Below are positions 662-40,925 of a stretch of 43,774 nt of DNA, piece after piece. The notes beneath the pieces are model-generated. The model ran no database searches and had not been told where the DNA came from. It saw only the letters and a list, made by a program, of their open reading frames with translations. Source of the stretch: Henriciella sp. (lineage in GTDB: Bacteria > Pseudomonadota > Alphaproteobacteria > Caulobacterales > Hyphomonadaceae). The translations under genes and the position numbers were made by a program. The stretch is from positions 1 through 43,774 of the forward strand of contig JALUWJ010000190.1 in assembly GCA_027019605.1 (NCBI GenBank). The letters are read 5' to 3'. Within the stretch, counting starts at the first letter, position 1. Each line of letters opens with the position of its first letter.

Positions 662-2191
662 TTAGCTGCAGGGCTCGGTTTTATAGAGAATGATGTCCGG
701 CGTTGCAGAAAGCGCGCACACCGGCAGATCCGACAGCGCCTCTTGCTCAGCCGTTTTGAACATGAGGAGGTAGTCCCATTGCTCCGGCCAATCATTGGCA
801 AAGTGAGGCGACCAATAGCCATTTTCGGATGCGACGCGGACCTGTTCGGCCAATGCGGAAAGATCTTTTGCAAACACGGGATTGGCCTGCGGCATGTGCA
901 GGTCGACCATGGCCGGGGTCACATCCACAAAGCTCGTATTGGTGAAGAGGTTCGGAACATAAGCGTTCCGCTCAATCACCGCGAGCGATAGGGCATGGGT
1001 ATTGAACGCGGTTCCAGAAGATAGATCGACATAAACACCGAGCACTTTGGAGCCTTCGGGGATCTCTGCGAGCTGGCCTTTCAAGGCGTTTGCCTGGGCA
1101 TCGATCACCGACATTTTGACGCCAGCATTGGCAAATAGCAGCGCCCCGAGGACCGCAAAGCCGCCCGCTAGAGCCGGTTTCAAGCGGGCTGGGAAAGCGT
1201 CCGTCGCCGAAATCGAGGCCGCAGCGACGATCAAAAGCGGCGCGGTGAACCGCAAGTGCAGGCCCCAGATTCCGAAAATTGAGGAGGGGATGACGATGAC
1301 GAGCGTCAGAAAGGCTATGCAGAGCCACGCACTCTTCGGCGCAAAACGCACCCAGTCTTGCCGGATCGCCATCCAGAGAAAACCTGCGACGGCGAGGACC
1401 GCCAGGAGCGCGAGCAGGCGATTATTGAAATCCGTTCCAGCAAACAGCACGCCAATCTTTTCTTCGAGGTCATAAAGCGGCGCGACATCTTGCGGGAGGT
1501 CGGCCGCGCCTTGCATGGACAGGGCGATGAAGACCAGTCCGGCCGCCATTGCCGGAAAATCCAGGACCGCCAATTGCCGAATGAACACCGGCAGGGAACC
1601 GCGGTCTTGCTTGAGGAATCCAATCACCTCCCAGCTGAACGCGAGAAACCCAAACAACAAGAAGGCGAGCGCATGATTGGCGACGAGCAATAAACTGATC
1701 GGCGCGAACAGCGCTGTGCGCCGCCAGCTCGGCGCCATTTTCACCCAGAGCGCGAAGGCCAAAACAGCCAAACCGCTCGACGCGGTATAGTTCACAAAAC
1801 CCCAACCCATATTGGCGTTGAAGACGGTCAAAAACCCGAGCAAGGAGAGCCATGTCACACGACCATGCAGGCTCTTTGACAGCGCCACGCCGGCGAGCGG
1901 CGGCAGCACCAGCGCAAGCCAGACGGTCACTCCGCCCGCCGCATAGATGCCAATCCAATGCGACAGCCAGGGGATAATCATATCCATGGTCAGGTCTGGG
2001 ATGAAATCGAATGAGACCGCGTAAAATCCTTGCAGCGCGGGCTCAGTCGCTAAGTGGCCCTCAATATAAGTCCGAGCCAGATGATTATAATAATCAATCC
2101 CGATCCCGAGGGGCCATAGCGCCACCATTGCCGCAAGAAGGCCCGCAAGGCCAATCGCGACATGGACCGGCTTCAAGACTGCCGGAGTCAT
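662..2191 (-). CDS. Unrecognised multi-pass membrane protein, possibly GT-C-type glycosyltransferase
   Basis: A 509-residue hydrophobic protein with roughly ten or more predicted membrane segments and a soluble C-terminal part from about residue 370 with few hydrophobic runs. I do not recognise a named family. After the first membrane segment comes DYYNHLAR (residues 33-40); an acidic residue followed by His and Arg in the first periplasmic loop is reminiscent of GT-C glycosyltransferases that use polyprenyl-phosphate sugars, but this is inference. It overlaps the methyltransferase upstream by 4 bases (ATGA), so the two are probably translationally coupled, and a polyprenyl-phosphate-type GT2 lies before that. 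The neighbourhood suggests a role in modifying a surface glycan or lipid. It could equally be a transporter-like protein of unknown function. Confidence 0.75.
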   Translation of the reverse strand: MTPAVLKPVHVAIGLAGLLAAMVALWPLGIGIDYYNHLARTYIEGHLATEPALQGFYAVSFDFIPDLTMDMIIPWLSHWIGIYAAGGVTVWLALVLPPLAGVALSKSLHGRVTWLSLLGFLTVFNANMGWGFVNYTASSGLAVLAFALWVKMAPSWRRTALFAPISLLLVANHALAFLLFGFLAFSWEVIGFLKQDRGSLPVFIRQLAVLDFPAMAAGLVFIALSMQGAADLPQDVAPLYDLEEKIGVLFAGTDFNNRLLALLAVLAVAGFLWMAIRQDWVRFAPKSAWLCIAFLTLVIVIPSSIFGIWGLHLRFTAPLLIVAAASISATDAFPARLKPALAGGFAVLGALLFANAGVKMSVIDAQANALKGQLAEIPEGSKVLGVYVDLSSGTAFNTHALSLAVIERNAYVPNLFTNTSFVDVTPAMVDLHMPQANPVFAKDLSALAEQVRVASENGYWSPHFANDWPEQWDYLLMFKTAEQEALSDLPVCALSATPDIILYKTEPCS

Positions 2192-14665: not shown

Positions 14666-15664
14666 CTAGGCTTCGATCCCAGCTTTGGCGGCCAAAGATC
14701 CGAGAGACACTTCAGGCCGCGGACCATAGTGAGAGATGACTTCCGCAGCTGCGATATGACCGAGCTTAGCGCAAGTTGCGAGTGGCAAACCGCGGGCCAC
14801 GCCGAACAGGAAACCGGCCGCATATTGATCGCCCGCGCCGGTTGTATCGACCACTTCGCTGACGGGTTCAGCCGGCACTTCGATTGGGTCGCCATCGCCA
14901 ATCACCACGGATCCTTTTTCACCGCGCGTGACGGCCGCCAGACCCGTTTCGGCGCGCAATTGTTCCAGCGCCGCGTCGAAATCGCGGGTTTCGTAGAGGC
15001 TCAGCAGCTCTTCCTCATTCGCAAACAGGATATCAACTTGCGTGCGGATCAGTTGCCGAAAACTGTCGCGGTGACGGTCAACGCAGAAACTATCGGAAAG
15101 CGTCAGCGACACTTTGCGACCCGCTGCGTGCGCGATTTCGGCCGCGTGTACGAACGCTGATTTTGCGATCTGTTTGTCAAAGAGATAGCCCTCAAGGTAG
15201 AGGATGCTGCCCGCTTCAACCATCTCGCGGTCGACATCTGAGGGCGCAAATTCAACCGAGGCGCCGAGGAATGTGTTCATGCTGCGCTTGCCATCTGGCG
15301 TCACAAAAATGATTGAGCGCGCTGTCGCAGGGCCTTCGGTGAGCGGCTCCGTTTCAAACGGCACGCCGCCATTTTCCATATCTGCCTTGAAGACTTTGCC
15401 GAGACGATCATCAGCGACTTTTCCGATATAGGCCGCCTTACCGCCAAAGCTTGCAATCCCAGCAATTGTGTTGGCGCCGGAGCCGCCGGACGTCTCAACC
15501 GCATTTACGGATGCTTCGGTCAGCGCGTCGGCGCGGTCTTCTTCGATCAGGTTCATCGCGTCTTTATTGATGCCCCATGTCTCGAGGAAAGCATCATCCT
15601 GCGCTGAAATCACATCGACGATCGCGTTGCCGAGACCGACCACATCATAAACCACTGCTGTCAT
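14666..15664 (-). CDS. Adenosine kinase-like PfkB family sugar kinase
   Basis: Phosphorylates a sugar or nucleoside hydroxyl with ATP; alphaproteobacterial homologues are annotated as adenosine kinase in purine salvage. With the ATG start (MTAVVYDVVGLGNAIVDV) the protein has 332 residues; an upstream in-frame start would add a poor leader. The substrate lid and the di-glycine signature SGGSGANTIAGIASFGG are in place, and the C-terminal PfkB signature DTTGAGDQYAAGFLFG carries the catalytic base Asp279 with an anion hole from GAG. The SLTLSDSF and LFANEEELLSLY segments match adenosine kinase-like members more than ribokinase. It is divergent from the ATP-grasp gene, with 83 bases between. Substrate specificity is inferred. 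Confidence 0.87.
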   Translation of the reverse strand: MTAVVYDVVGLGNAIVDVISAQDDAFLETWGINKDAMNLIEEDRADALTEASVNAVETSGGSGANTIAGIASFGGKAAYIGKVADDRLGKVFKADMENGGVPFETEPLTEGPATARSIIFVTPDGKRSMNTFLGASVEFAPSDVDREMVEAGSILYLEGYLFDKQIAKSAFVHAAEIAHAAGRKVSLTLSDSFCVDRHRDSFRQLIRTQVDILFANEEELLSLYETRDFDAALEQLRAETGLAAVTRGEKGSVVIGDGDPIEVPAEPVSEVVDTTGAGDQYAAGFLFGVARGLPLATCAKLGHIAAAEVISHYGPRPEVSLGSLAAKAGIEA

Positions 15665-15747
15665 TGAGATATCCCTGGAATGAACTCGGGGCGATGTGCC
15701 AGATGCAGGTGCTAGACGCAACCTATCAGCCCAGTTATGGGGCGAGG

Positions 15748-16620
15748 ATGATGAAAATTGCCTACCTCGCCTCCAAAGTTACGCTGCCCGGATCACCGCT
15801 TCGGCGCAGTGACGCCTTCGAACATGATTATATGATGGAGGCCCTGCGCGGACCTTTTGGTGCTCAAGAGATGAGCGTCGAAGATGTCGATTGGAATGAT
15901 CAAACAATCGACTGGTCACAGTTTGATGCCGCCCTCATCGGCACCACTTGGGACTATTGGGATCAGCCACAGCTCTTCCTATCCACTTTGGAAAAGATCG
16001 AGGGCCAGACGCGATTGTTCAACTCAGCGGCAACCGTGCGCTGGAACAGCGACAAGCGCTACTTGAAAGAGCTCGCCGCCAAGGGCGCGCGCACAATCCC
16101 AACCCTATGGATCGACAAGGTTGAAGCGGCAGACTTTCACGCCGCGTTTGATAAGCTTGGCAGCGATGATTTGGTCTTCAAACGGCAAATTGGGGCAGGG
16201 GCTGATGGTCAATTCCGCTTGGCGCCAGGCGACAACCTCCCGGATATGCCACACCCGATGATGGTTCAGCCTTTCCTGAGCACGATCCAGGAAGAGGGCG
16301 AGTACAGCTTCATTTTTATTGATGGCGAATTTTCCCACGCCTTGTTGAAACAGGCCAAGTCAGGCGATTATCGCATTCAATCGACCTATGGCGGCTGGGA
16401 AACGAAAGTGTCCCCAAGCACCGGTGACCTGAACGATGCTCGGGCCATTCTGGACCTTATGGAAGAGACACCCTTCTATGCGCGGGTCGATATGATCCGG
16501 GACACGGATCGCCGTTTGCTCCTTATGGAGCTCGAATTGATCGAGCCTTATCTCTATCCAAAAGAGGGACCTGAGCTTGGCGCAATCATGGCGAAAGCTC
16601 TGAAAGCGCGCCTCGGCTAA
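15748..16620 (+). CDS. ATP-grasp domain protein (RimK/glutathione-synthetase-like)
   Basis: A 290-residue cytosolic enzyme that would form an amide or peptide bond via an acyl phosphate. The N-terminal pre-ATP domain (MKIAYLASKVTLPGSPLRRSD, then ALIGTTWDYWDQPQLF) is followed by the segment RWNSDKRYLKELAAKGARTIPT, and the ATP-grasp core DLVFKRQIGAGADGQFRL, MVQPFLSTIQEEGEYSFIFI and RVDMIRDTDRRLLLMELELI, where Glu and Asp residues bind magnesium. This pattern matches uncharacterised alphaproteobacterial ATP-grasp proteins related to glutathione synthetase and DcsG. Two adjacent ATGs (15748, 15751) are possible starts. The stop overlaps the convergent rlmB stop by 4 bases. Substrate unknown. Confidence 0.82.
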   Translation: MMKIAYLASKVTLPGSPLRRSDAFEHDYMMEALRGPFGAQEMSVEDVDWNDQTIDWSQFDAALIGTTWDYWDQPQLFLSTLEKIEGQTRLFNSAATVRWNSDKRYLKELAAKGARTIPTLWIDKVEAADFHAAFDKLGSDDLVFKRQIGAGADGQFRLAPGDNLPDMPHPMMVQPFLSTIQEEGEYSFIFIDGEFSHALLKQAKSGDYRIQSTYGGWETKVSPSTGDLNDARAILDLMEETPFYARVDMIRDTDRRLLLMELELIEPYLYPKEGPELGAIMAKALKARLG

Positions 16621-22737: not shown

Positions 22738-23667
22738 TTAGGAGCGTTTTGCCGTTAAACGTCGGCAAAGTTCGTCCAATTGTTCGAGATCGCCATACTT
22801 GATCCGCAACTCGCCGCCAGAAACGCCCTGACGGATGTCGACTTTTAAACCAAGAACGCGGGCAAGATCCGCCTCGAGTGCTTCGGTGTCGACATCTTTG
22901 TCGGTCTGATTGACCTTCTTCGCCACCGTATCCAGCGCGCTGCCATCCTTCAGGCGTTTGACCAAAGCCTCGACATCACGAACCGACATGCCTTTGGCCA
23001 CCGCCATATCCACAACCGGGTCTGGATCAGGCGCACCGAGCGCCGCCCGCGCGTGACCGGCGGAGATCCGGCCTTGCCGCAAATGTTCACGTGAAGTCTC
23101 ACCCAAATTGAGCAGACGCATCGTGTTTGCGATATGAGCCCGAGACTTCCCGACGCTCTCCGCCAGGTCTTCTTGAGTCCGCCCAAACCGTTTGATCAGC
23201 GCGCCATAAGCTTCGGCTTCTTCAATCGGGTTTAGATCTTCACGCTGAACATTCTCGATGATGCCGACTTCGAGAAGCTGTAACTCATCAAGCTCGCGAA
23301 CAACCGCTGGGATCGTCGAGAGACCCGCCCGCTGCGCGGCGCGCCAACGTCGTTCACCCGCCACAATTTGAAACTGATTTGGCGCATCCGGATCTGGCCG
23401 AAGCAAGATGGGTTGCAAAACCCCGCGTTGCCGGATCGAGGCCGCGAGTTCTTCAAGTTCAGTCTCAGAAAAAGTGCGTCGTGGTTGGGCAGGGTTCGGA
23501 CGGATGTCTGAAAGCGAGAATTCCGCAACTGCGCCAGACGGTGACCGCCCAGAACTTTCCGGTGTATCTTCCGGTGCCGCGAGACCAACGCCTTCAACTT
23601 CTCCGATCAGCGCGGATAAGCCTTTTCCGAGTCGGTTCTGTTTTCCCCGTGCTGGATCTGGCGCCAT
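22738..23667 (-). CDS. parB: Chromosome partitioning protein ParB
   Basis: Binds parS sites near the origin, spreads as a CTP-dependent clamp and works with ParA to segregate chromosomes. The 309-residue protein begins with the ParA-contacting peptide NRLGKGLSALIGE, then the ParB/Srx domain with SLSDIRPNPAQPRRTF, the CTP-binding GERRWRAA (about 104-111) and ENVQREDLNPIEEAEAY. A helix-turn-helix with TQEDLAESVGKSRAHIANTM binds parS, and the C-terminal dimerisation domain ends in RLTAKRS. The start lies 2 bases after the parA stop. Three likely parS sites lie 1.4-3.7 kb away in rsmG, mnmG and mnmE. Confidence 0.97.
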   Translation of the reverse strand: MAPDPARGKQNRLGKGLSALIGEVEGVGLAAPEDTPESSGRSPSGAVAEFSLSDIRPNPAQPRRTFSETELEELAASIRQRGVLQPILLRPDPDAPNQFQIVAGERRWRAAQRAGLSTIPAVVRELDELQLLEVGIIENVQREDLNPIEEAEAYGALIKRFGRTQEDLAESVGKSRAHIANTMRLLNLGETSREHLRQGRISAGHARAALGAPDPDPVVDMAVAKGMSVRDVEALVKRLKDGSALDTVAKKVNQTDKDVDTEALEADLARVLGLKVDIRQGVSGGELRIKYGDLEQLDELCRRLTAKRS

Positions 23668-23669
23668 GC

Positions 23670-24482
23670 CTACCCCCGTAATGCGCGTTCGCGCTGAAGC
23701 ATTTCAGACGCCAGGCGAATATATGCTTCGCTGCCCGGGCACCTATAATCATAAAGCAAAGCCGGTTTGCCGAAACTCGGCGCCTCGGACAGACGCACAT
23801 TGCGCGGGATCACAGTATTGTAGACTTTGGTGCCGAGAACCGAGCGAACTTCGTCAGCAACCTGGTCAGATAGATTGTTGCGGCGGTCATACATGGTCAG
23901 AACCACACCTTGAATGTCCAAGTCCGGGTTCAGGCCAGAGCGCACCAATTCAACTGTTTTCAAAAGTTGGCTCAAGCCTTCGAGCGCCAGGAATTCGCAT
24001 TGCAGCGGCACCAAAAGCGAGTCCGAAGCCGTCATCGCATTGATCGTCAGCGCCGAAAGGGATGGCGGACAATCGATCAGGATATAGTCATACTCGGTCT
24101 TACCGCGCGACGCCGCTTGCTCGACATAAGAGCGAAGCGCATTGCGCAATCGATAAGAGCGATGCGGATCGTTTGAGAGTTCTGTTTCCACGCCGGCGAG
24201 GTTTTCATCACCCGGAACAATGTCCAAGCGCGGGACGAGCGTGTTGAGGACGGCATCTCCGAGGAATTCATCGTGGACGATGACGTCATACGTGGTGAGT
24301 TGGCGTTCTGGGCGTGTAATCCCGAGACCGGTCGAGGCATTTCCTTGCGCATCAAAGTCGATCACCAGGACTTTTCGTCCAACAGCCGCCAAGGCGGTGC
24401 CAAGATTGATGGATGTCGTTGTTTTCCCGACGCCGCCCTTTTGATTGGCAATGGCCAGAATGCGTGTATTCGCGTTAGACAC
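23670..24482 (-). CDS. parA: Chromosome partitioning ATPase ParA
   Basis: A dimerising ATPase that coats the nucleoid and draws ParB-parS complexes toward the pole; in stalked relatives it also interacts with polar hubs. The 270-residue protein has the deviant Walker A KGGVGKTTTSINLG (from residue 15), with the signature Lys15, a switch I region DFDAQGNASTGLGI, and the Walker B-like YDYILIDCPPSLSALTIN. The short N-terminus, without a DNA-binding domain, marks it as the chromosomal (type Ib/Soj) form. It overlaps rsmG by 8 bases. In Caulobacter the same parA-parB pair is essential and origin-proximal. Confidence 0.97.
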   Translation of the reverse strand: MSNANTRILAIANQKGGVGKTTTSINLGTALAAVGRKVLVIDFDAQGNASTGLGITRPERQLTTYDVIVHDEFLGDAVLNTLVPRLDIVPGDENLAGVETELSNDPHRSYRLRNALRSYVEQAASRGKTEYDYILIDCPPSLSALTINAMTASDSLLVPLQCEFLALEGLSQLLKTVELVRSGLNPDLDIQGVVLTMYDRRNNLSDQVADEVRSVLGTKVYNTVIPRNVRLSEAPSFGKPALLYDYRCPGSEAYIRLASEMLQRERALRG

Positions 24483-25101
24483 GTGAAACCTCCGAAATCT
24501 TCAAGATAGCCCCATCCCCGGTTACACTGGGAATCGCTTCATAGGCGAATCTCCAAGATTCCTGCGCTGCCGTCAATTCTTCTTGCCAGCGACGGCCCTT
24601 TGGAAACACACCGTAAGCTCCAGCTTTAAGCCAAGGCTCAGCATAATCCAGTAATTTCGGTAAGGGCGCGAACGCGCGAGCGGTGATACAATCGGCATGG
24701 ACAGGGTTAACCGCCTCAACCCGACCCTGAATGACTTTTGCGTTTAAATTCGCCGCTTGAACCGCGGCGCGCAGGAAAGCGCACTTCTTCCCGACGCTTT
24801 CAATCATCGTCATATGGGACTCTTCTGACGCGAATCCTGCGGCGAGAACCAAAGCCGGAAATCCTGAGCCCGATCCCAGATCGATCGTTTTCCCACCGTC
24901 GGGAATGTGCGGAAACAATTGCCAGGAGTCCCAAACATGGCGGCGCCAAACCTGATCAAATTCAGATGGCCCAATCAAATTGATCTTTGTCCGCCATTCA
25001 TCGAGCTCCGAAACAATGGTTTCGATCCGCTCCAATGTTTCACGTGAAACATTCCCAGCTTTCTCGAGGTCTTTCGCCCCAAACCCATCACGATCAGCCA
25101 T
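24475..25101 (-). CDS. rsmG: 16S rRNA (guanine-527-N7)-methyltransferase RsmG
   Basis: Methylates G527 in the 530 loop of 16S rRNA; loss gives low-level streptomycin resistance in other bacteria. The 208-residue protein has [20 protein letters not shown], then the SAM motif [16 protein letters not shown] and the segment [15 protein letters not shown], as in GidB proteins. The early peptide [11 protein letters not shown] is encoded across a perfect parS site, so that stretch is under double selection. It overlaps mnmG by 8 bases and parA by 8 bases, forming a tightly packed mnmG-rsmG-parA-parB unit. Confidence 0.96.
25036..25051. other. parS site (perfect match), inside rsmG
   Basis: TGTTTCACGTGAAACA, an exact match to the bacterial parS consensus, with the palindrome extending one base on each side. 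In the rsmG frame it encodes part of NVSRET. It is the expected loading site for the ParB encoded 1.4 kb away. Confidence 0.95.
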
Positions 25102-26974
25102 TTGCAGACCGCTTTCGATCAGGGCGACGTTTCACAAATGCCAGGAGCGCCGTGAGAGCGCCCGGGGTCATACCTTCAATTCGCCCGGCCTGACCGAGTG
25201 TGGCTGGTCGGATTGTTTCAAGTTTCGCGCGGACTTCATTGGTCAGACCACCGACGGCCGCATAATCCAGGTCTTCCGGAAGCACCAGAGACTCCTCTCG
25301 GCGCAGCGCGGCAACATCTTCTTTCTGGCGCTCAATGTAACCGGCATACATGGCTTCGATTTCGAGTTGCGCTTTGATCGCCGCGTTAAGCGAAGCCACC
25401 TGATCAAACACCGATTCAATCGCGGCCATATCGATCGTTGGGTAAGCCAGAAATTCCCACGCGCTGCGGCGCTGACCATCTTGATTGACCTTCCATCCGA
25501 GTTTTTGCGCTTCGTTTGGCGTCATGGCCGCTGATTTCAGAACGTCTCGCCCGGCTTCCAAAGCAGATTGTTTCACGTGAAACATCTCTGCGCGTTTTGG
25601 TCCGACCAAGCCAAGATCTATGCCCCGTTCGGTCAGACGTTGATCCGCATTATCAGACCGCAAAGATAGGCGGTATTCTGCGCGTGACGTGAACATCCGA
25701 TAGGGTTCAGTGACACCGCGCGTCACCAAGTCATCAACCAAAACGCCAATATAAGCTTCGGCCCGATCAAAAGTGGCGCGGGGCTCGCCCTGTGTGTAGC
25801 GCACCGCGTTCAAACCAGCGACCAGGCCTTGGGCGCCCGCTTCTTCATATCCTGTCGTTCCGTTGATTTGGCCCGCCAGGAACAATCCCGGAAGAACTTT
25901 CACCTGAAGCCCCGCATCCAAGGCGCGAGGATCGACATAATCATATTCGATCGCATAGCCGTATTCGAGGATCTCAACCGATTCCAATCCTTCAATCTTG
26001 CGAATGAAACGATCCTGAACCTCGCAGGGCAGGGACGTCGATATTCCATTCGGATAGACGGTGTCGTCCTCTAAGCCTTCCGGCTCCAGAAAGATTTGGT
26101 GCCGCGTCTTATCGGCGAACCGGTGAATCTTGTCCTCAATTGACGGACAATAGCGGGGCCCGCGCCCAGCGATTGCGCCGGAATAGACGGCCGACTGATT
26201 GATATTCTCCGCGATGATGTCATGCGCCGCCGCGTTGGTGAACGTGATCCCGCACGCAATTTGCGGAACTTCAATCTTGTCCGTGGCGAAAGAGAATGGA
26301 ATGGGCTCGGCATCCGCAGGCTGCATTTCCAATCGATCCCAGTCGATGCTGCTCGCTTTTAATCGCGCCGGGGTTCCTGTCTTCAAACGCCCCATCGGAA
26401 GATCGAGAGCATAGAGACGATCAGCGAGACCAATCGCTGGTTTTTCTCCAACCCGGCCCGCCGGAATACGTTCCGCGCCTCGATGAATAATCCCTTTCAG
26501 GAATGTGCCCGTCGTTATGATCACCGCGTCCGCTTTATAGGAGGTGCCGGATTCGCCGATGACGCCGCGGACACGTTTATCCTGAACAATCAAATCTTCC
26601 ACGCCATCCGCAATGACGGACAGATTTTCGTGGTTCAAGATTTCATCCTGCATCGCCTGGCGATACAAAGCCCGATCAATTTGCGCGCGCGGCCCCCAAA
26701 CGGCTGGGCCTTTCGATCGGTTGAGCATCCGGAACTGAATTCCGGACCGATCTGCAACCCGCGCCATCAACCCATCGAGGGCATCGATCTCGCGAACCAG
26801 ATGGCCTTTGCCCAATCCGCCAATGGCCGGGTTACAAGACATTTCGCCGATCGTCTCGATCTTGTGCGTGATCAAAGCCGTGCGCGCGCCCATGCGCGCG
26901 GCCGCAGATGCAGCTTCGCATCCGGCATGGCCGCCACCGACCACAATGACTTCAAAAAATTGGGCTTCGCTCAT
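25094..26974 (-). CDS. mnmG: tRNA uridine-5-carboxymethylaminomethyl modification enzyme MnmG (GidA)
   Basis: With MnmE it installs the cmnm5 group on U34 of several tRNAs, using FAD and a methylene-tetrahydrofolate carbon. The 626-residue protein starts with the FAD dinucleotide fold [17 protein letters not shown] (about 9-25), has the GidA signature [12 protein letters not shown] and later [17 protein letters not shown], both family hallmarks, and ends with the helical C-terminal domain that meets MnmE (SNADQ...-type region followed by LPEDLDY and [17 protein letters not shown]). The peptide [12 protein letters not shown] is encoded over a parS site. It lies 54 bases from mnmE, in the classical near-origin cluster. 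Confidence 0.97.
25569..25584. other. parS site (perfect match), inside mnmG
   Basis: TGTTTCACGTGAAACA again matches the consensus exactly. In the mnmG frame it encodes FHVKQ, a different reading frame from the copy in rsmG, which shows that the DNA sequence rather than a peptide is being conserved. Confidence 0.95.
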
Positions 26975-27028: not shown

Positions 27029-28348
27029 CTATTTGCCAATACAAAAGGAAGAAAAGACAGCGCCGAGAACCATTTCTGTTTCAACATGCCCCGTCAGCGA
27101 TCCAAGTTCCCGGCTTGCCAGACGCACTTCTTCGGCTGTGAATTCGGCGCCCATCCCAGAATTCAGGTGCTCCAACGCCGTAAGCAAATGCGCCTTAGCG
27201 CGTTCAATGCCTTGCCGGTGACGGGCGCGGGTAATCATTGGCGCGGATAGATTATTAGTCAGCCTCGACAAGCGGTCGACAATCGCTGCTTCGACACGAT
27301 CAATTCCCTGTCCTTCCCTAGCGGAGATCAGGAGTGTGTCACGTGAAACATTTGGCGCGGCGAGGTCTGACTTGTTCACAACCATAATATCGCCTGGTTG
27401 GACCAAGTCTGTCTCGATAGAATCGCGGCCATCGAATAACCAGATCCGAACATCCGCTTCCGCCCCAGCTTGACGCGCGCGGCGAACGCCCTCGGCTTCA
27501 ACAATATCATCAGTTTCCCGCAATCCGGCTGTGTCAGACACCCAGACCAAATAGCCGCCCAGTGTCAGTCTGACTTCGACCACGTCCCGGGTCGTACCTG
27601 GAATGTCTGTGACGATCGCGGCTTCACGTTTGGCGAGTTGATTAAGAAGCGTCGATTTCCCGGCATTTGGTTTACCCAAGATCGCTACGCGGAAACCATC
27701 GCGAATGCGTTCTGTGATGTTCCCCTCGGCCAGGGCTTGATCCAGGCCTTCCAAAAGCGTGTTGATCTTTTCAGCGACGGGACCGTCAACGCGGTCCGGT
27801 GCATCTTCTTCGTCCGGAAAGTCGATGCTCGCCTCCAGGAGTGCTAGACATTCCGTCATTTGAATTCGCCAATCTGAGTAAAGCGTCTCCAACGCGCCAT
27901 CCATTTGACGGAGGGCCTGGTCCAATTGGGCTTCACTTTCGGCATCGATGAGATCGGCTACGGCTTCGGCGCGGGTCAGATCCAGTTTTCCGGCTTCGAA
28001 GGCGCGGCGTGTAAACTCTCCTGGTTCCGCCAAACGCGCACCTGCGGACATGAAAGCTTTCAACGCAAGCTCGATAATCATCCGCCCGCCATGGAGCGTG
28101 ATTTCGAGTGTGTCTTCGCCGGTATAACTTGCTGGTCCAGGCATCAAGACCGCGAGCCCTTCATCAATCACGGCGCCATCATCAGATCGAACTTCGACCA
28201 AAGTGGCGCGGCGCGGCGTTAGCGACGGCTTTGACAATCGCTTTTCGATGATGGAGCGGACGTCCGGCCCAGATATACGAAGGGTTGCGATCGCCGCGGG
28301 CGGCGGCCCACTTGCCAGAGCACAAATCGTGTCCCGGCGTAGGGTCAT
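27029..28348 (-). CDS. mnmE: tRNA modification GTPase MnmE
   Basis: A dimeric, potassium-activated GTPase that works with MnmG on wobble uridines. The 439-residue protein opens with TICALASGPPPAAIATLRIS, the tetrahydrofolate-binding domain, continues with the central helical domain, and has an embedded G domain with GKPNAGKSTLLNQLA (about 225-239), SDTAGLRETDD (271-281) and NKSDLAA. It ends in CIGK, the invariant C-terminal Cys motif. The segment PNVSRDTLLIS overlaps a near-perfect parS. It begins only 2 bases after the rho stop, so it is probably transcribed with rho. Confidence 0.97.
   Translation of the reverse strand: MTLRRDTICALASGPPPAAIATLRISGPDVRSIIEKRLSKPSLTPRRATLVEVRSDDGAVIDEGLAVLMPGPASYTGEDTLEITLHGGRMIIELALKAFMSAGARLAEPGEFTRRAFEAGKLDLTRAEAVADLIDAESEAQLDQALRQMDGALETLYSDWRIQMTECLALLEASIDFPDEEDAPDRVDGPVAEKINTLLEGLDQALAEGNITERIRDGFRVAILGKPNAGKSTLLNQLAKREAAIVTDIPGTTRDVVEVRLTLGGYLVWVSDTAGLRETDDIVEAEGVRRARQAGAEADVRIWLFDGRDSIETDLVQPGDIMVVNKSDLAAPNVSRDTLLISAREGQGIDRVEAAIVDRLSRLTNNLSAPMITRARHRQGIERAKAHLLTALEHLNSGMGAEFTAEEVRLASRELGSLTGHVETEMVLGAVFSSFCIGK
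27335..27350. other. parS-like site (15 of 16 bases), inside mnmE
   Basis: TGTGTCACGTGAAACA differs from the consensus at the fourth base only. In the mnmE frame it encodes NVSRDT. It is the parS copy nearest to the putative origin, about 4 kb away. Confidence 0.8.
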
Positions 28349-30206: not shown

Positions 30207-31247
30207 CTAAGCCTGTTCCCGAACAATCTCGACGACGCGTTCTACATGCGGGATGGGTGTGTCCGGCCGAACCCCATGACCGAGATTAAAGATATGTGGG
30301 CGCCCTTTATAGGCTTCCAGAATTTCTCTGACCCGCTTCTCCATCGCAGGACCCCCTTCAATCAGAAGCACAGGATCCAAATGACCCTGAACCGCAATTG
30401 AGTCTGGCACGGCTTTCAAGACATGTTCCGGACTAATTGCGGTATCGAGACCAATTCCATTCACAGCGACTTGCTCGGCATATGACCCAATCATGGTCGC
30501 CGCGCCGCGGGGAAATCCGATAATCGGCACGGTGACACCCATATCGCGCAAACGTTTGATCAGGGCTGCATTTGGTTCAACCACCAGGGTTTGAAACAGA
30601 TCAGACGGCAAGCCTTCGGCCCAGGATTCAAAAATCATCAGCGCATCGGCGCCAGCTTTAACTTGGGCCGCTAGATAATGCGCGCTGATCTCCACAATCC
30701 GATCGAGAAGGGCTTTGAGCAGATCTTGGCGACTATAGGCCCAACCTCTGGCTGAACTCTTATCGGTGCCGCCGCGTCCTTCGATGGCATAAAGCGCAAC
30801 CGTCCAAGGGGCGCCGCAAAATCCGATCAATGCTTTGTCTGACTCTAACTGGCTTCGAACACGATCGACCGTTTCATAGACAGGCGACAATCTTTGAACC
30901 GCCATTTCAACAGGGGCGCGATTGAGATCAGCCTCTGTTTCCACGGTTTCAACAATTGGCCCCACACCTTTTTCGAACCGCACATCTAGACCCATCGCAT
31001 CCAGAATCAGCAAGATATCAGCGAACAGGATCGCTGCATCCATATCGTATCGGCGGATTGGCTGAAGCGTGGCTTCCGCAGCCATAGAAGGAGAGTAACA
31101 AAAATCGAGAAAGTCTTTGGCCCGGCTGCGCAGTTCCAGATATTCCGGCAAATGCCGCCCGGCTTGTCGCATCATCCAGATGGGAACTGGGGACGAAGGG
31201 GTCCCAGAAAGCACTTTTAGGAATCGTGAAGAAACAGGATCGGCCAT
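30207..31247 (-). CDS. hemE: Uroporphyrinogen decarboxylase
   Basis: Converts uroporphyrinogen III to coproporphyrinogen III in heme synthesis; cytosolic homodimer. The 346-residue TIM barrel shows signature 1 PIWMMRQAGRHLPEY (about 22-36) with the substrate-binding Arg residues, ILFADILLILDAMGL with the key Asp, signature 2 GFCGAPWTVALYAIEG, and the C-terminal NLGHGVRPDTPIPHV with the conserved His. Its 5' end borders the putative origin; in Caulobacter the hemE promoter lies inside the origin and influences it. A weak GGTTTG stretch is the only ribosome-binding signal I see. Confidence 0.98.
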   Translation of the reverse strand: MADPVSSRFLKVLSGTPSSPVPIWMMRQAGRHLPEYLELRSRAKDFLDFCYSPSMAAEATLQPIRRYDMDAAILFADILLILDAMGLDVRFEKGVGPIVETVETEADLNRAPVEMAVQRLSPVYETVDRVRSQLESDKALIGFCGAPWTVALYAIEGRGGTDKSSARGWAYSRQDLLKALLDRIVEISAHYLAAQVKAGADALMIFESWAEGLPSDLFQTLVVEPNAALIKRLRDMGVTVPIIGFPRGAATMIGSYAEQVAVNGIGLDTAISPEHVLKAVPDSIAVQGHLDPVLLIEGGPAMEKRVREILEAYKGRPHIFNLGHGVRPDTPIPHVERVVEIVREQA

Positions 31248-31344
31248 ATCGATTTACAAACCCAGAAAAAATAATCCGTAGGCCTTATCATTATTAAGCG
31301 CGGAGTCTCGTGGAAAACACGGCCTGAGAACATTTGTCCCGCCT

Positions 31345-31353
31345 ATATCCACA
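31345..31353 (+). promoter_or_regulatory. DnaA-box-like sequence (8 of 9 bases)
   Basis: ATATCCACA differs from TTATCCACA only at its first base. A weaker CTATCCCCA follows 2 bases later on the same strand, so the pair is tandem with an 11-base step, about one helical turn, and lies just left of the A/T-rich block. This spacing favours cooperative DnaA binding; binding itself is inferred. Confidence 0.5.
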
Positions 31354-31377
31354 GTCTATCCCCAGATAAGAACCCAG

Positions 31378-31392
31378 TTAACCTTTCATTAA
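31378..31392 (+). promoter_or_regulatory. CtrA-type binding site (TTAA-N7-TTAA)
   Basis: TTAA, seven bases (CCTTTCA), TTAA: an exact match to the core consensus of the cell-cycle regulator CtrA, which represses origin firing in Caulobacter. It sits in the A/T-rich block right after the DnaA-box-like pair, so CtrA and DnaA could compete here. Binding is inferred from motif and place. Confidence 0.6.
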
Positions 31393-31408
31393 GAACCTGA
31401 TTCAAAAG

Positions 31409-31424
31409 TAAATAAAGTATTAAC
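31409..31424 (+). promoter_or_regulatory. Second CtrA-type site (one mismatch)
   Basis: TAAA, seven bases (TAAAGTA), TTAAC: one mismatch in the first half and the preferred C after the second half. It is 31 bases (about three helical turns) from the first site, on the same face of the helix. Confidence 0.5.
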
Positions 31425-31598
31425 GACGCTTCGAAACGCATGTTTGGAACAGACCTAAAACTCGAGGAGTCAGATTCGTTCACTTGTGCGATTCAGAGTC
31501 GGATTCTGGGGCCAACTGCGAATTCCACAACGCATCCACAGGGCTTGTCGAATTCGTATCGCTCCGGCAGAGGAAGATTTGAAAATTTCAGGCTGGCT

Positions 31599-32423
31599 AT
31601 GCGATTATCGATCTATTTCAACGTCCACTTAGTGTCCGATTCCACAGGCGAAACTTTAAACGCTGTGATGCGCGCCGCGGCGGCGCAATTCGATCGGACC
31701 ATTCCGCTAGAGCACAATTATTATCTCGTCCGCTCGGAACGACAATTGGATCGAGTGATGGCTGAAATCGAGGCCGCCCCTGGCGTGGTCTGGTACACCA
31801 TCTCTGACGAAGCGCTGCGGCGTAAACTAGAACAGTTTTGCCGGCAGCGTGGGATCCAAACCTTACCGGTTCTTGACCCGTCTATTCACATGTTGTCTCG
31901 GCATCTCGGTATTCCCGCGAGTGAGAAAATTGCCAGTCAGCACGCGCTGAACGAGGAATATTTCAAACGGATCTCGGCCATTGATTTCGCGCTCAACCAT
32001 GATGATGGGCAAAATGTCAGCGGCCTCGGCGATGCGGACGTTGTTTTGCTTGGCGTTAGCCGGACATCGAAAACGCCAACCTGTGTCTATCTCGCCAATC
32101 GGGGCGTGAAGGCCGGAAACATTCCGCTGGTTCCAGGAATTCCGCTTCCGCCTTCCGTGGAACAACTTAAACATCCAATGGTTGTGGGCTTGAAAATTGG
32201 TGTTGAGCGCTTGCTGCAGATACGATCGCAGCGCCTGGTCTCTCTGAATGAGAATTCCAAAACAGATTATGTCGATGAAGAAGCTGTGCGCGCTGAAGTG
32301 ACTGAAGCCAGCCGCCTATTCCAACGCAATAAGTGGCCGGTTATTGATGTCTCACGCCGGAGCGTCGAGGAAACGGCGGCCGCGATTTTGAACAAATTGA
32401 ATGAACGCCGAGGGTTCGTTTGA
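31599..32423 (+). CDS. ppsR: PEP synthetase/pyruvate-phosphate dikinase regulatory protein (PPSR, DUF299)
   Basis: A bifunctional kinase/pyrophosphorylase that switches PEP synthase or pyruvate,phosphate dikinase off and on by threonine phosphorylation. With the ATG at 31599 it has 274 residues, the family's normal length, and the hallmark HLVSDSTGETLNAV lies at residues 10-23. The P-loop-like GVSRTSKTPTCVYLANRG (152-169), and the NIPLVPGIPLPPSVEQL and RLLQIRSQRL segments, are all present. An earlier in-frame ATG at 31440 would add 53 residues without family character and run through the putative origin. It is the Caulobacter CC0001 counterpart by position. Its stop overlaps the maf start. 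Confidence 0.95.
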   Translation: MRLSIYFNVHLVSDSTGETLNAVMRAAAAQFDRTIPLEHNYYLVRSERQLDRVMAEIEAAPGVVWYTISDEALRRKLEQFCRQRGIQTLPVLDPSIHMLSRHLGIPASEKIASQHALNEEYFKRISAIDFALNHDDGQNVSGLGDADVVLLGVSRTSKTPTCVYLANRGVKAGNIPLVPGIPLPPSVEQLKHPMVVGLKIGVERLLQIRSQRLVSLNENSKTDYVDEEAVRAEVTEASRLFQRNKWPVIDVSRRSVEETAAAILNKLNERRGFV

Positions 32424-34433: not shown

Positions 34434-35124
34434 TGCAGTGCGCGAAATCGCTTTCGATACGGAAACGACAGGACTGGAATGGGATAAAGACGACCGGATT
34501 ATCGAACTCGGTGCGGTCGAACTGATCAACCATGTTGCGACGGGAAAGACGTTTCAGACTTATATCAATCCCGGCCGCCCGGTCTCTGAGGCGACTATCC
34601 GGATCACCGGGATCACCGACGATGATCTGGTCGACAAACCGGGATTCGAAGATCCGAGCATTGTCGATGCGTTTCTCGAATTTGTTGGGGATGCCACCTT
34701 GGTTGCGCACAATGCCAAGTTTGACCGCGGCTTCTTGAACATGGAGCTTCAGCGCTGCGGCAAAGCTCCCATTCCGGAAGAACGCTGGGTAGATACGGTC
34801 ATGATCGCGCGCAAAAAATATCCGGGCGCGCCAGCCAGCCTGGATGCTTTGTGTAAGCGTTTCGACGTAAACGCCGACGCGCGGACATTTCACGGCGCGC
34901 TCTTGGACAGCCAGTTATTGGCAGAAGTTTATCTCGAGCTCTTAGGGGGCCGCGCGCACAGGTTTGACTTTGGCGGACAGAGCCAGGCTCAAGATGGTGC
35001 ACGCGCACCGGCCGTTCAGCGGCCATCTCCCTTGAAGGCAGAGATCTCTAGTGAAGAGCAAAGCACCCACACCGAGTTTATCGAAACACTCGGTGAGGAT
35101 GCAATTTGGAAGCGTTACGCCTGA
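34426..35124 (+). CDS. dnaQ: DNA polymerase III epsilon subunit (3'-5' proofreading exonuclease)
   Basis: Proofreading subunit of the replicative polymerase. The 232-residue protein has the three DEDDh exonuclease motifs: [12 protein letters not shown] with Asp11 and Glu13, [14 protein letters not shown] with Asp100, and [18 protein letters not shown] with His156 and Asp161. The C-terminal tail after about residue 185 (Gln/Ser/Pro-rich, ending [14 protein letters not shown]) is the flexible part that contacts the polymerase alpha subunit. It is the last gene of the plus-strand right-arm cluster and its 3' end overlaps the convergent secB by 10 bases. Confidence 0.96.
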
Positions 35125-35642
35125 GGCTCACCTGTCGGCGCTGGCGCTGGTGCCGCTGAAGCCTGCTCGGCCGCCGCCGCCGCCGCGCGTTGTTTCTGAG
35201 TGTTGTACAGCGCGCCAAAGTCGACTGGATCGATGCGCAGTGGCGGGAATCCACCTTCTGCAGAAATGTCTGCGATGATGCGACGCGCGAATGGGAACAG
35301 AACCCGCGGGCACTCGATGAGCAAAACCGGCTCAATGTCGCCAGCGCCAAATCCTTGCAATTGGAAGGTCCCGGCATAGTCCATTTCGAGAATGAACAGC
35401 GCAGTTTCTTTTGTGCCAGCGCGAGCTTTGAGTTTGAGGACGACTTCGAAGACTCCCTCTTCGCCCTGCTTCGGCGCGGCGCCTACATCAATCCCAAGTT
35501 CGATATTTGGCTGCGCTTGCACGGTCGCTCCAGGATTCTCAAACGAGAGGTCCTTAATGTACTGGCTCAGCACGCGGATGGCTGGGCCCTGTTGAGGAGC
35601 ATTGTTTTGCGGCTGAGTTGCCATATCTGGGGTGTCTGTCAT
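35115..35642 (-). CDS. secB: Protein-export chaperone SecB
   Basis: A tetrameric cytosolic chaperone that keeps preproteins unfolded and delivers them to SecA. The 175-residue protein has a Gln/Asn-rich N-terminus, then VLSQYIKDLSFENPGA, the beta-sheet core with FEVVLKLKARAGTKETALFI, YAGTFQLQGF, and the C-terminal helix LIECPRVLFPFARRIIADI with FPPLRIDPVDFGALY. The Ala/Pro/Gln-rich tail is typical of alphaproteobacteria. Its position beside dnaQ and opposite the Tim44-like gene matches the Caulobacter order. Its 3' end overlaps dnaQ by 10 bases, with no separate terminator visible. Confidence 0.97.
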   Translation of the reverse strand: MTDTPDMATQPQNNAPQQGPAIRVLSQYIKDLSFENPGATVQAQPNIELGIDVGAAPKQGEEGVFEVVLKLKARAGTKETALFILEMDYAGTFQLQGFGAGDIEPVLLIECPRVLFPFARRIIADISAEGGFPPLRIDPVDFGALYNTQKQRAAAAAAEQASAAPAPAPTGEPQA

Positions 35643-38669: not shown

Positions 38670-38769
38670 TTTAAACCCCTTCTAATCTCCAGACCCGAAA
38701 GCCTTAGCGCCAGAATGTTTGAATTCTGCCGCGAGGTCAAATCTCAGAAACAGTTTTGGATACAATCGC

Positions 38770-39069
38770 TTAGCGCGATTCTGGATCCACGCCGTCATTC
38801 ACGCGGGCTCGAAGTTCTTTGCCCGGGCGGAAGAATGGGACAGATTTCGCTTCCACGCTGACGGATTCTCCCGTGCGTGGATTACGTCCCTTGCGGGCTT
38901 TTCGATGACGGACGGAAAAAGCGCCAAATCCTCGCAGTTCGACGCGATCGCCGCGAGCAAGCGCATCGGCGATTTCGTCAAGGATGACCCCAACGAGTTT
39001 CTCCAGATCCTCCGGGCGCAATTCCGGATTCTCGTCTGCAAGTTTAGCGATGAGTTCAGATCTCAGCAT
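38770..39069 (-). CDS. ihfB: Integration host factor beta subunit
   Basis: A nucleoid protein that bends DNA sharply as a heterodimer with IHF-alpha. The 99-residue protein begins with the helical dimer base ([19 protein letters not shown]), then [20 protein letters not shown], followed by [11 protein letters not shown] with the intercalating Pro, and [15 protein letters not shown]. The tail and RPEDLE near the start fit the beta (HimD) type rather than HU. IHF takes part in origin control in Caulobacter. The gene starts only 17 bases past the end of the rpsA terminator, which leaves little room for an ordinary promoter. Confidence 0.95.
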
Positions 39070-39085
39070 GTCTTTGAACCTAAAC

Positions 39086-39121
39086 GAAAAATGCGACGGA
39101 GACTAGGCCTCCGTCGCAAAA
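39086..39121 (-). terminator. Rho-independent terminator after rpsA, close to ihfB
   Basis: On the minus strand GCGACGGAG and CTCCGTCGC form a perfect 9-base-pair stem with a 7-base loop (39093-39117), followed by ATTTTT. It ends about 17 bases before the ihfB start, so read-through or an internal promoter must supply ihfB mRNA. Confidence 0.85.
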
Positions 39122-39164
39122 TACTTGTCCATTACCTTATTGTTAGGAATGGATGTAAACCAAC

Positions 39165-40925
39165 TTACGCGTCGTCGCCTTCGTCAGCTTTCTTTTTAGT
39201 CGCCTTCTTCTTCTTAGGCTTCTCTTCGGTTGCGGCGTCGTCACCTTCGCCGGTTGCGAGAGCTGCACCAAGAATGTCACCAAGCGATGCGCCACTATCG
39301 GCAGAACCGTATTGGGCGACAGCTTCTTGCTCTTCAGAGATCTCAAGCGCTTTGATTGAGACACCGATGCGGCGAGAAGATTTGTCGACTTGCGTGACTT
39401 TCGCGTCGATCTTGTCGCCGACCGCGAAACGCTCTGGGCGTTGTTCGCTGCGGTCGCGAGACAGATCAGAACGACGGATGAAGGCTTTGACGGCTGGATC
39501 GCCGAACTCAACCTCGATACCGCCAGACGCAACTTCAGTGACCGTACAGGTTACAACTGCACCGCGCTTGACGCTGCTATTGTCAGCGATTGGATCGCCG
39601 CCAACTTGCTTGATGCCGAGCGAGATACGCTCTTTCTCAGTATCAACGTCGAGGACGCGTGCTGTGACGCTGTCACCTTTTTGGAAAGCCTGAATGGCTT
39701 CTTCGCCAGACTGTTCCCAAGAGATGTCGTTGATGTGGACCATGCCGTCCAGGTCTGGGCCAAGGCCGACAAACAGACCGAACTCAGTGATGCCGCGAAC
39801 TTCGCCTTCGATGTCCGTGCCAACTGGGTGCTCAGCCATAAAGGCAGACCATGGATTGTCCTGAGTTTGCTTCAGGCCAAGTGAAATACGGCGCTTCTCG
39901 CTATCCACATCGAGGACCTCAACGAGGACTTCTTGAGATGTAGAGACGATTTTGCCTGGGTGTACGTTCTTCTTGGTCCAGCTCATTTCAGAGACGTGGA
40001 TCAGGCCTTCAACACCGTCTTCGAGCTCAACAAACGCACCGTAATCGGTGATGTTTGTGACCTGACCAGACATACGCGTGCCGACTGTGTACTTGCTCTC
40101 GATATCGTCCCAAGGATCGCTTTCGAGTTGCTTCATACCAAGGCTGATGCGCTGGGTCTCTGGGTTGATCTTGATGATCTGAACTTTGACCGTGTCGCCA
40201 ACATTGACGACTTGGCTTGGGTGATTGACGCGCTTCCAGCTCATGTCAGTGACGTGCAGGAGGCCATCAATGCCGCCAAGATCAACGAACGCACCGTAAT
40301 CGGTGATGTTCTTGACGACGCCTTCGCGGGTATCGCCTTCGTTCATATCGCCAACGATTTCCGCGCGCTGCTCGGCACGGCTCTCTTCGAGGATGGCACG
40401 GCGAGAGACAACAACGTTGCCGCGCGCGCGGTCCATTTTCAGAATTGCGAATGGCTGAACTTCGTTCATCAGTGGGCCAACATCGCGAACTGGGCGGATG
40501 TCGACTTGTGAGCCAGGAAGGAAGGCATTCACACCGCCAAGATCGACAGTGAAACCGCCTTTAACGCGGCCAACAATCGCGCCCTTAACAGGCTCTTCTT
40601 TATTGTAATTGTCTTCCAGACGGATCCAGCTTTCTTCGCGGCGGGCTTTGTCGCGCGACAGAACAGCTTCGCCCATCAGGTTTTCGATACGGTCGAGGTA
40701 GACTTCGACAATATCACCAGCTTCAGGCTGCTTTTCTTCCAGAAGGAATTCTTTTGATGCAACGCGGCCTTCAGTTTTCAGGCCAACGTCGAGCACAAGA
40801 TAGTCGCCATTGTTAGAAATGACGGTCGCTGGAACAACTTTGCCCTCTACAAGAGTGGCGGCGCCAGCGCTGTCCTCGAACATTGAGGCAAAATCCTCAG
40901 TCGAGGGATTCATTGATTCAGTCAT
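39165..40925 (-). CDS. rpsA: 30S ribosomal protein S1
   Basis: Binds mRNA on the 30S subunit and is needed for initiation on structured or weak-SD messages. The 586-residue protein has six S1 repeats, spaced about 80-90 residues apart; the strongest copies show KNITDYGAFVDLGGIDGLLH, TNITDYGAFVELEDGVEGLI and RGITEFGLFVGLGPDLDGMV. It ends with an Ala/Glu-rich stretch and a Lys-rich tail (KPKKKKATKKKADEGDDA), as in other alphaproteobacteria. GGAGA lies just before the start. It lies downstream of aroA-cmk on the same strand, the order conserved in many proteobacteria, with ihfB after it. S1 autoregulation through its leader is known elsewhere; no such element is proven here. Confidence 0.98.
   Translation of the reverse strand: MTESMNPSTEDFASMFEDSAGAATLVEGKVVPATVISNNGDYLVLDVGLKTEGRVASKEFLLEEKQPEAGDIVEVYLDRIENLMGEAVLSRDKARREESWIRLEDNYNKEEPVKGAIVGRVKGGFTVDLGGVNAFLPGSQVDIRPVRDVGPLMNEVQPFAILKMDRARGNVVVSRRAILEESRAEQRAEIVGDMNEGDTREGVVKNITDYGAFVDLGGIDGLLHVTDMSWKRVNHPSQVVNVGDTVKVQIIKINPETQRISLGMKQLESDPWDDIESKYTVGTRMSGQVTNITDYGAFVELEDGVEGLIHVSEMSWTKKNVHPGKIVSTSQEVLVEVLDVDSEKRRISLGLKQTQDNPWSAFMAEHPVGTDIEGEVRGITEFGLFVGLGPDLDGMVHINDISWEQSGEEAIQAFQKGDSVTARVLDVDTEKERISLGIKQVGGDPIADNSSVKRGAVVTCTVTEVASGGIEVEFGDPAVKAFIRRSDLSRDRSEQRPERFAVGDKIDAKVTQVDKSSRRIGVSIKALEISEEQEAVAQYGSADSGASLGDILGAALATGEGDDAATEEKPKKKKATKKKADEGDDA

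Follow-up and report, generated by a model that had tools for sequence, protein, structure and literature searches.

The Caulobacter origin carries two classes of weak DnaA sites, whose low affinity is seemingly tuned (PMC4468827), and its W-box is TCCCCA (PMC4285127); the origin of C. crescentus and those of its close relatives are also reported to contain GANTC motifs (PMC3973325). In Hyphomonas neptunium, marker frequency is reported to peak close to hemE, parAB being ~7 kb away, with two consensus parS (PMC6650430), and ChIP-seq is reported to show CtrA binding beside the origin (PMC7200025).

We analysed a 43,774-nucleotide stretch of Henriciella sp. DNA (hereafter, the window), which is contig C190 of a draft genome (G000) of 327 contigs and 84% completeness. 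The first-pass annotation had proposed that the stretch between hemE and ppsR is a replication origin, and we hold with high confidence that this 351-bp gap, whose coordinates are exact, is the chromosomal oriC, of the Caulobacter hemE-ppsR type, of a Hyphomonadaceae bacterium. This reading is drawn from synteny, GC-skew reversal, proximity of parS, conserved DnaA and CtrA columns and the published marker-frequency mapping in H. neptunium, of the same family. The gap is ordinary in kind and well supported as an origin. The gap and its flanks are:

31248..31598, no strand, putative oriC (synteny, skew, conserved motif columns)
30207..31247, minus strand, hemE, left flank (TIGR01464, 376 bits; starts at 31247)
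31599..32423, plus strand, ppsR (COG1806/PF03618), right flank (PF03618, 307 bits; conserved ATG at 31599)

Profile matches give the order hemE, hemJ, rho, mnmE, gidA, gidB, parA, parB on the hemE side (the hemJ call scoring below its NCBIfam cut-off) and ppsR, maf, aroE, coaE, dnaQ, timA-like, mltA, smr on the ppsR side. Gene orientation diverges at the gap, as had been noted: genes lie on the minus strand from 21.2 to 31.2 kb and on the plus strand from the gap to 35.1 kb, resuming from 35.8 to 38.2 kb after a single minus-strand ORF (35115-35642), with mixed orientation farther out. Contrary to what had been supposed, the gap does not lie at the centre of the window, the origin being at 31.4 of 43.8 kb. 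Its description as the sole gene-free stretch above 300 bases is plausible: the crude gene caller left three other gaps (310, 895 and 502 bp), of which two are covered by overlapping ORFs (2188-2808 and 15577-16620) and the third carries two tRNAs. Rfam at the gathering threshold gave three tRNAs and nothing else. Three ORFs of the window, 665-2191 (minus strand, 509 aa), 15577-16617 (plus, 347 aa) and 38719-39690 (plus, 324 aa), have no Pfam match at E 0.001.

Note that a longer in-frame ppsR ORF is possible from 31440, in which case the GANTC cluster described below would be coding. This start was judged unlikely: an in-frame stop occurs within the 159 nt before ppsR in 48 of 58 gaps (10 of the 12 nearest; none in the window or in locus L018), so the stretch 31440-31598 is unlikely to be coding.

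Synteny was assessed in two overlapping sets. hemE is divergent beside ppsR in 57 of 58 relatives, the exception (L008) having no hemE in its flank, and in 75 of the best 80 of 588 confirmed matches, the five exceptions lacking hemE in the fetched flank; some genomes are common to both sets, and the top-scoring matches in the best 80 come from Henriciella and Hyphomonas. Base-level conservation was read from a 32-row alignment, window included, of genomes with a PpsR at least 73% identical, which excluded 26 of the 58 gaps; the analysis left aside G050, whose ppsR lies at the edge of a contig, and G029, which gave no ppsR match. One locus, L066, comes from a bin labelled Acidobacteria, on a contig whose ppsR is 73% identical to the window's; this contig is probably mis-binned Hyphomonadaceae.

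GC skew had been named as a check on the origin, and it flips at this locus both in the window, where the cumulative minimum lies at 31735, and across a sampled genus-mate. Because the genome of the window is a draft in 327 contigs, chromosome-wide skew was examined in a complete genome (G028) whose PpsR is 94.9% identical to the window's, using 40 pieces of 20 kb spread around the chromosome (22% of its bases). Counted without the origin piece and the antipodal piece, each arm has 19 pieces; 17 show positive skew on the ppsR arm, and 17 show negative skew on the hemE arm. The best origin breakpoint falls at most one 91-kb step from hemE-ppsR, and the opposite breakpoint at ~1.9 Mb. The dnaA gene, on a separate contig in the window's genome, is 547 kb from the locus in G028; the piece there has a skew of −0.007 with positive pieces on either side, hence no lasting flip at dnaA, and an origin at dnaA was rejected on the sampled G028 skew.

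The window's genome encodes DnaA (Pfam, 111 bits) and CtrA (414 bits, above the NCBIfam cut-off), together with CcrM (604 bits) and GcrA (211 bits), both under their NCBIfam cut-offs. None of 61 genomes or 14 controls, among them Caulobacter vibrioides, reaches the 830-bit cut-off of the NCBIfam CcrM model, NF050803; this cut-off looks too high.

The left arm also carries partition functions, whose parS sites were not mentioned in the first-pass annotation:

22738..24482, minus strand, parB and parA (PF02195/PF17762/PF23552 and PF13614)
25036..25051, plus strand, parS, exact TGTTTCACGTGAAACA (motif scan)
25569..25584, plus strand, parS, exact TGTTTCACGTGAAACA (motif scan)
27335..27350, plus strand, parS-like, 1 mismatch (motif scan)

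The three sites lie inside gidB, gidA and mnmE, 3.9-6.2 kb left of the gap (3 against 0.18 expected), the exact parS and parAB being 5.7-8.5 kb from it.

Within the gap, four predicted DnaA boxes form two tandem pairs:

31345..31353, plus strand, DnaA box 1a ATATCCACA, 1 mismatch; hexamer column kept in 26 of 32 genomes
31356..31364, plus strand, DnaA box 1b CTATCCCCA, with the Caulobacter W-box hexamer TCCCCA inside; TCCMCA column in 14 of 32
31521..31529, plus strand, DnaA box 2a AATTCCACA; hexamer kept in 23 of 32
31532..31540, plus strand, DnaA box 2b GCATCCACA, with a conserved CACAGGNNTTG after it; hexamer kept in 31 of 32

The first-pass annotation had described one tandem pair of DnaA-box-like sequences one helical turn apart, which we recover at 31345/31356; it overlooked the second pair at 31521/31532, and both are spaced by 11 bp. 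The TCCMCA hexamers start at 31348, 31359, 31524 and 31535, four in the gap against 0.29 expected, a count reached by none of 2000 dinucleotide shuffles. Tandem TCCMCA pairs occur at four places in G000, two of them in this gap, and at three in G028, two of them at the origin. Counts of whole boxes are less striking: with at most one mismatch, a single nine-base box lies in the gap, equalled by 136 of 2000 shuffles and not unusual alone, and with at most two mismatches the gap count is reached by 30 of 2000 dinucleotide shuffles. For these predicted sites, as for the CtrA sites below, column conservation is stronger evidence than motif counts.

No perfect DnaA 9-mer is present within the window's gap. 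The first-pass statement to this effect stands, but the cooperative weak sites that it deduced are not new, since weak G- and W-boxes are already published for the Caulobacter origin. Box strength varies by lineage, a perfect TTATCCACA being found at the 31521 column in 5 of the 32 aligned genomes. The Caulobacter G-box, TGATCCACA, is found in none of 58 gaps, the window's included. On the minus strand, a DnaA hexamer column at 31485 is present in 15 of the 20 more distant aligned genomes and in none of the 12 nearest. Two observations stand apart: positions 31309-31317 are conserved as CGTGGAAAA / GGTGGACAA, which resembles a DnaA box on the minus strand and has two mismatches in the window, and a 17-mer, TCCCCAAAATCTCCCCA, with the tandem DnaA-like spacing also occurs at L216 982 and L217 1031 (contigs C7 and C38 of G000).

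The A/T-rich block and the CtrA-type sites reported earlier are both present, and they coincide:

31375..31424, no strand, candidate DNA unwinding element, the window's least stable 50-mer, 26% GC
31378..31392, no strand, predicted CtrA site, exact TTAA-N7-TTAA; 30 of 32 genomes match with no more than 1 mismatch
31409..31423, no strand, predicted CtrA site, 1 mismatch; 27 of 32 genomes match with no more than 1 mismatch
31390..31402, minus strand, weak IHF-like site, 1 mismatch, overlapping a CtrA site

Both CtrA sites sit on the least stable 50-mer, and the next-best CtrA column in the alignment reaches 3 of 32 genomes. Among dinucleotide shuffles, the CtrA result is reached in 83 of 2000 with at most one mismatch and in 26 of 2000 for an exact site. 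The position of the unstable block is not the same in all relatives: it lies at 128-179 in five of eight profiled gaps, at 141-191 in two and at 1-50 in L013. IHF-like sites are at chance level in the window; the column at 31390 is the best kept of the gap, in 9 of 32 genomes at up to one mismatch and in 26 of 32 at up to two. A block at 31284-31298 (CTTATCATTATTAAG), among the best conserved of the gap across the 32 genomes, matches no DnaA, CtrA or IHF consensus and is perhaps part of the hemE promoter.

The gap also contains seven GANTC sites, five of them within 40 bp, which had been overlooked:

31303..31307, no strand, GANTC site, conserved in 11 of the 12 closest genomes
31399..31403, no strand, GANTC site, poorly conserved (3 of these 12)
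31467..31506, no strand, five-GANTC cluster (sites at 31467, 31473, 31490, 31496 and 31502)

Of the 12 nearest genomes, 9, counting the window, have all five cluster columns and the remaining three have three of them; conservation is 0.95 at the palindromic columns of the cluster against 0.77 over the whole gap. Seven GANTC arise in 3 of 2000 dinucleotide shuffles, and five in 45 bp in none; five in 45 bp are also absent from 855 other 351-bp windows of the contig (step 50) and from 15,327 windows of the G028 sample, while the G028 origin total, eight GANTC, is equalled by one of 15,327 other G028 windows. The density in the gap is 19.9/kb against 3.06/kb in 147 intergenic control rows, none of which has at least four GANTC in 45 bp; these rows come from crude gene calls, and one of them is a piece of this origin (31248-31439, ppsR being called from 31440). 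Ranked against base composition only, GANTC is first of 16 palindromic pentamers in all four origin groups, at 5.0, 3.4, 2.0 and 2.0 times expectation.

Gaps without any GANTC number 3 of 58 among relatives and 6 of 75 among loci from the best 80 of 588 matches. A strong ccrM match is found in 60 of 61 genomes, and ccrM loss was rejected as the cause for the three cases in the 58 set, in which ccrM is present. The 17-bp triple GANTC is restricted to the origin in G025 and G028, has one further place in G000 and in G001, and occurs nowhere in G018 and G020. The second place of G000 (contig C214; L214 1968-1984) is just behind a tyrosine integrase gene and has a palindrome, TGACTCTGAGTCA. What may be new here is the GANTC density together with a clade-specific fixed array at the position of the DnaA hexamer of other relatives.

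Three readings of these observations were weighed beside the origin assignment itself. Tentatively, the cluster could have been kept because a protein recognises it, its GAKTC repeats being incidental to that sequence. Across the 12 nearest genomes each of the five sites has a fixed middle base, and GAKTC is the plus-strand reading at 73 of 78 clade sites, against an even balance (A/C 880, T/G 878) in the G028 sample; a palindromic methylase site alone would not require a fixed middle base. Against this, GANTC is top-ranked in other groups too, the middle base is mixed outside the clade (47 G/T, 43 A/C), and shared ancestry alone could preserve it. The GcrA consensus, YGAKTCK (PMC7987155), is absent from the window's gap and matched in 3 of 12 clade genomes, and the reading of the cluster as a GcrA promoter site was rejected.

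We consider it unlikely that the cluster contributes to origin function, with full versus hemimethylation by CcrM gating DnaA, GcrA or a SeqA-like factor and so imposing one firing per cycle. The density, shuffle counts and palindromic conservation given above speak for it, as do the five columns shared by 9 of the 12 closest genomes, the restriction of the triple GANTC to the origin in two genomes, the top rank of GANTC in every group and the strong ccrM match in 60 of 61 genomes. So does the finding that CcrM over-expression gives extra chromosomes in C. crescentus (PMC3973325), and that CcrM affects firing of the RepC-type ori2 in Agrobacterium (PMC11514494). However, the same reports describe normal initiation control in delta-ccrM C. 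crescentus (PMC3973325) and an insignificant effect of CcrM depletion on the DnaA-type ori1 of Agrobacterium (PMC11514494). Some gaps do without GANTC, three of them in genomes with ccrM; one other G028 window holds as many GANTC as the G028 origin; the triple GANTC also lies elsewhere in two genomes and is missing from two more; YGAKTCK is unmatched; and the five columns are one clade feature, not independent events. The more specific version, a CcrM-methylated switch whose hemimethylated state after each round would alter how DnaA or some unknown factor binds, as an independent counterpart of Dam/SeqA at a DnaA-type origin, appears improbable.

Least of all does the gap resemble a mere bidirectional hemE/ppsR promoter under CtrA and GcrA control with the origin elsewhere, e.g. 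at dnaA, which is very improbable: the promoters of two genes must fit in the gap, CtrA and GANTC sites are typical of cell-cycle promoters and the conserved block 31284-31298 could belong to the hemE promoter, but the skew breakpoint is at the gap and absent at dnaA, tandem DnaA hexamers spaced by 11 bp are nearly confined to the gap, YGAKTCK is absent from it, a scan of 31100-31750 returned two weak matches (0.7 expected), inside ppsR and across its start, and the marker-frequency data from the same family (H. neptunium, PMC6650430) argue otherwise.

With the gap taken as oriC, the sites, conservation, skew reversal, synteny and dnaA, ctrA, ccrM and gcrA genes computed here most probably fit a cycle whose binding, melting and timing steps are all inferred from Caulobacter. 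In the non-replicating cell, phosphorylated CtrA (CtrA~P) would occupy 31378 and 31409, over the unwinding element 31375-31424, and exclude DnaA. Once CtrA is removed, DnaA-ATP would load onto the weak tandem pairs 31345/31356 and 31521/31532, perhaps aided by an IHF bend at 31390, and melt the AT-rich element; two forks would then be loaded, one exiting past hemE and the other past ppsR. The GANTC sites would stay hemimethylated until late-cycle CcrM action.

These results carry the origin plan of Caulobacter over to a Henriciella-like lineage, with footprints at base level from 32 genomes. Should the GANTC array matter, the question of whether a DnaA-type origin can be gated by CcrM would be reopened. 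The E. coli oriC holds dense adenine-methylation sites (Dam GATC) inside the origin, in a scheme run through Dam and SeqA, and this gap is likewise dense in such sites, here CcrM GANTC. SeqA is part of the E. coli scheme; CcrM is reported not to be required for initiation control in C. crescentus (PMC3973325).

The gap has the same flanking genes as Cori (hemE CC3763 / COG1806 CC0001) and shares with it, as described in published reports, an AT-rich element, TTAA-N7-TTAA CtrA sites, weak DnaA sites including TCCCCA, and GANTC (PMC1914354, PMC4285127, PMC4468827, PMC3973325). It differs in length (351 bp, where five Caulobacter-titled loci measure 519-533 bp), in CtrA sites (two found against five reported for Cori) and in the absence of the G-box TGATCCACA, present in 4 of those 5 loci; unlike Cori, it has two tandem box pairs 11 bp apart and five GANTC within 40 bp. 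Skew and DnaA boxes are reported as unclear in H. neptunium, in contrast to the clear skew in G028, and none of the loci compared here was recognised as its origin. By its published description, H. neptunium, a member of the same family, has a hemE-proximal origin with parAB/parS and CtrA binding nearby, matching the genes and predicted sites found here (PMC6650430, PMC7200025).
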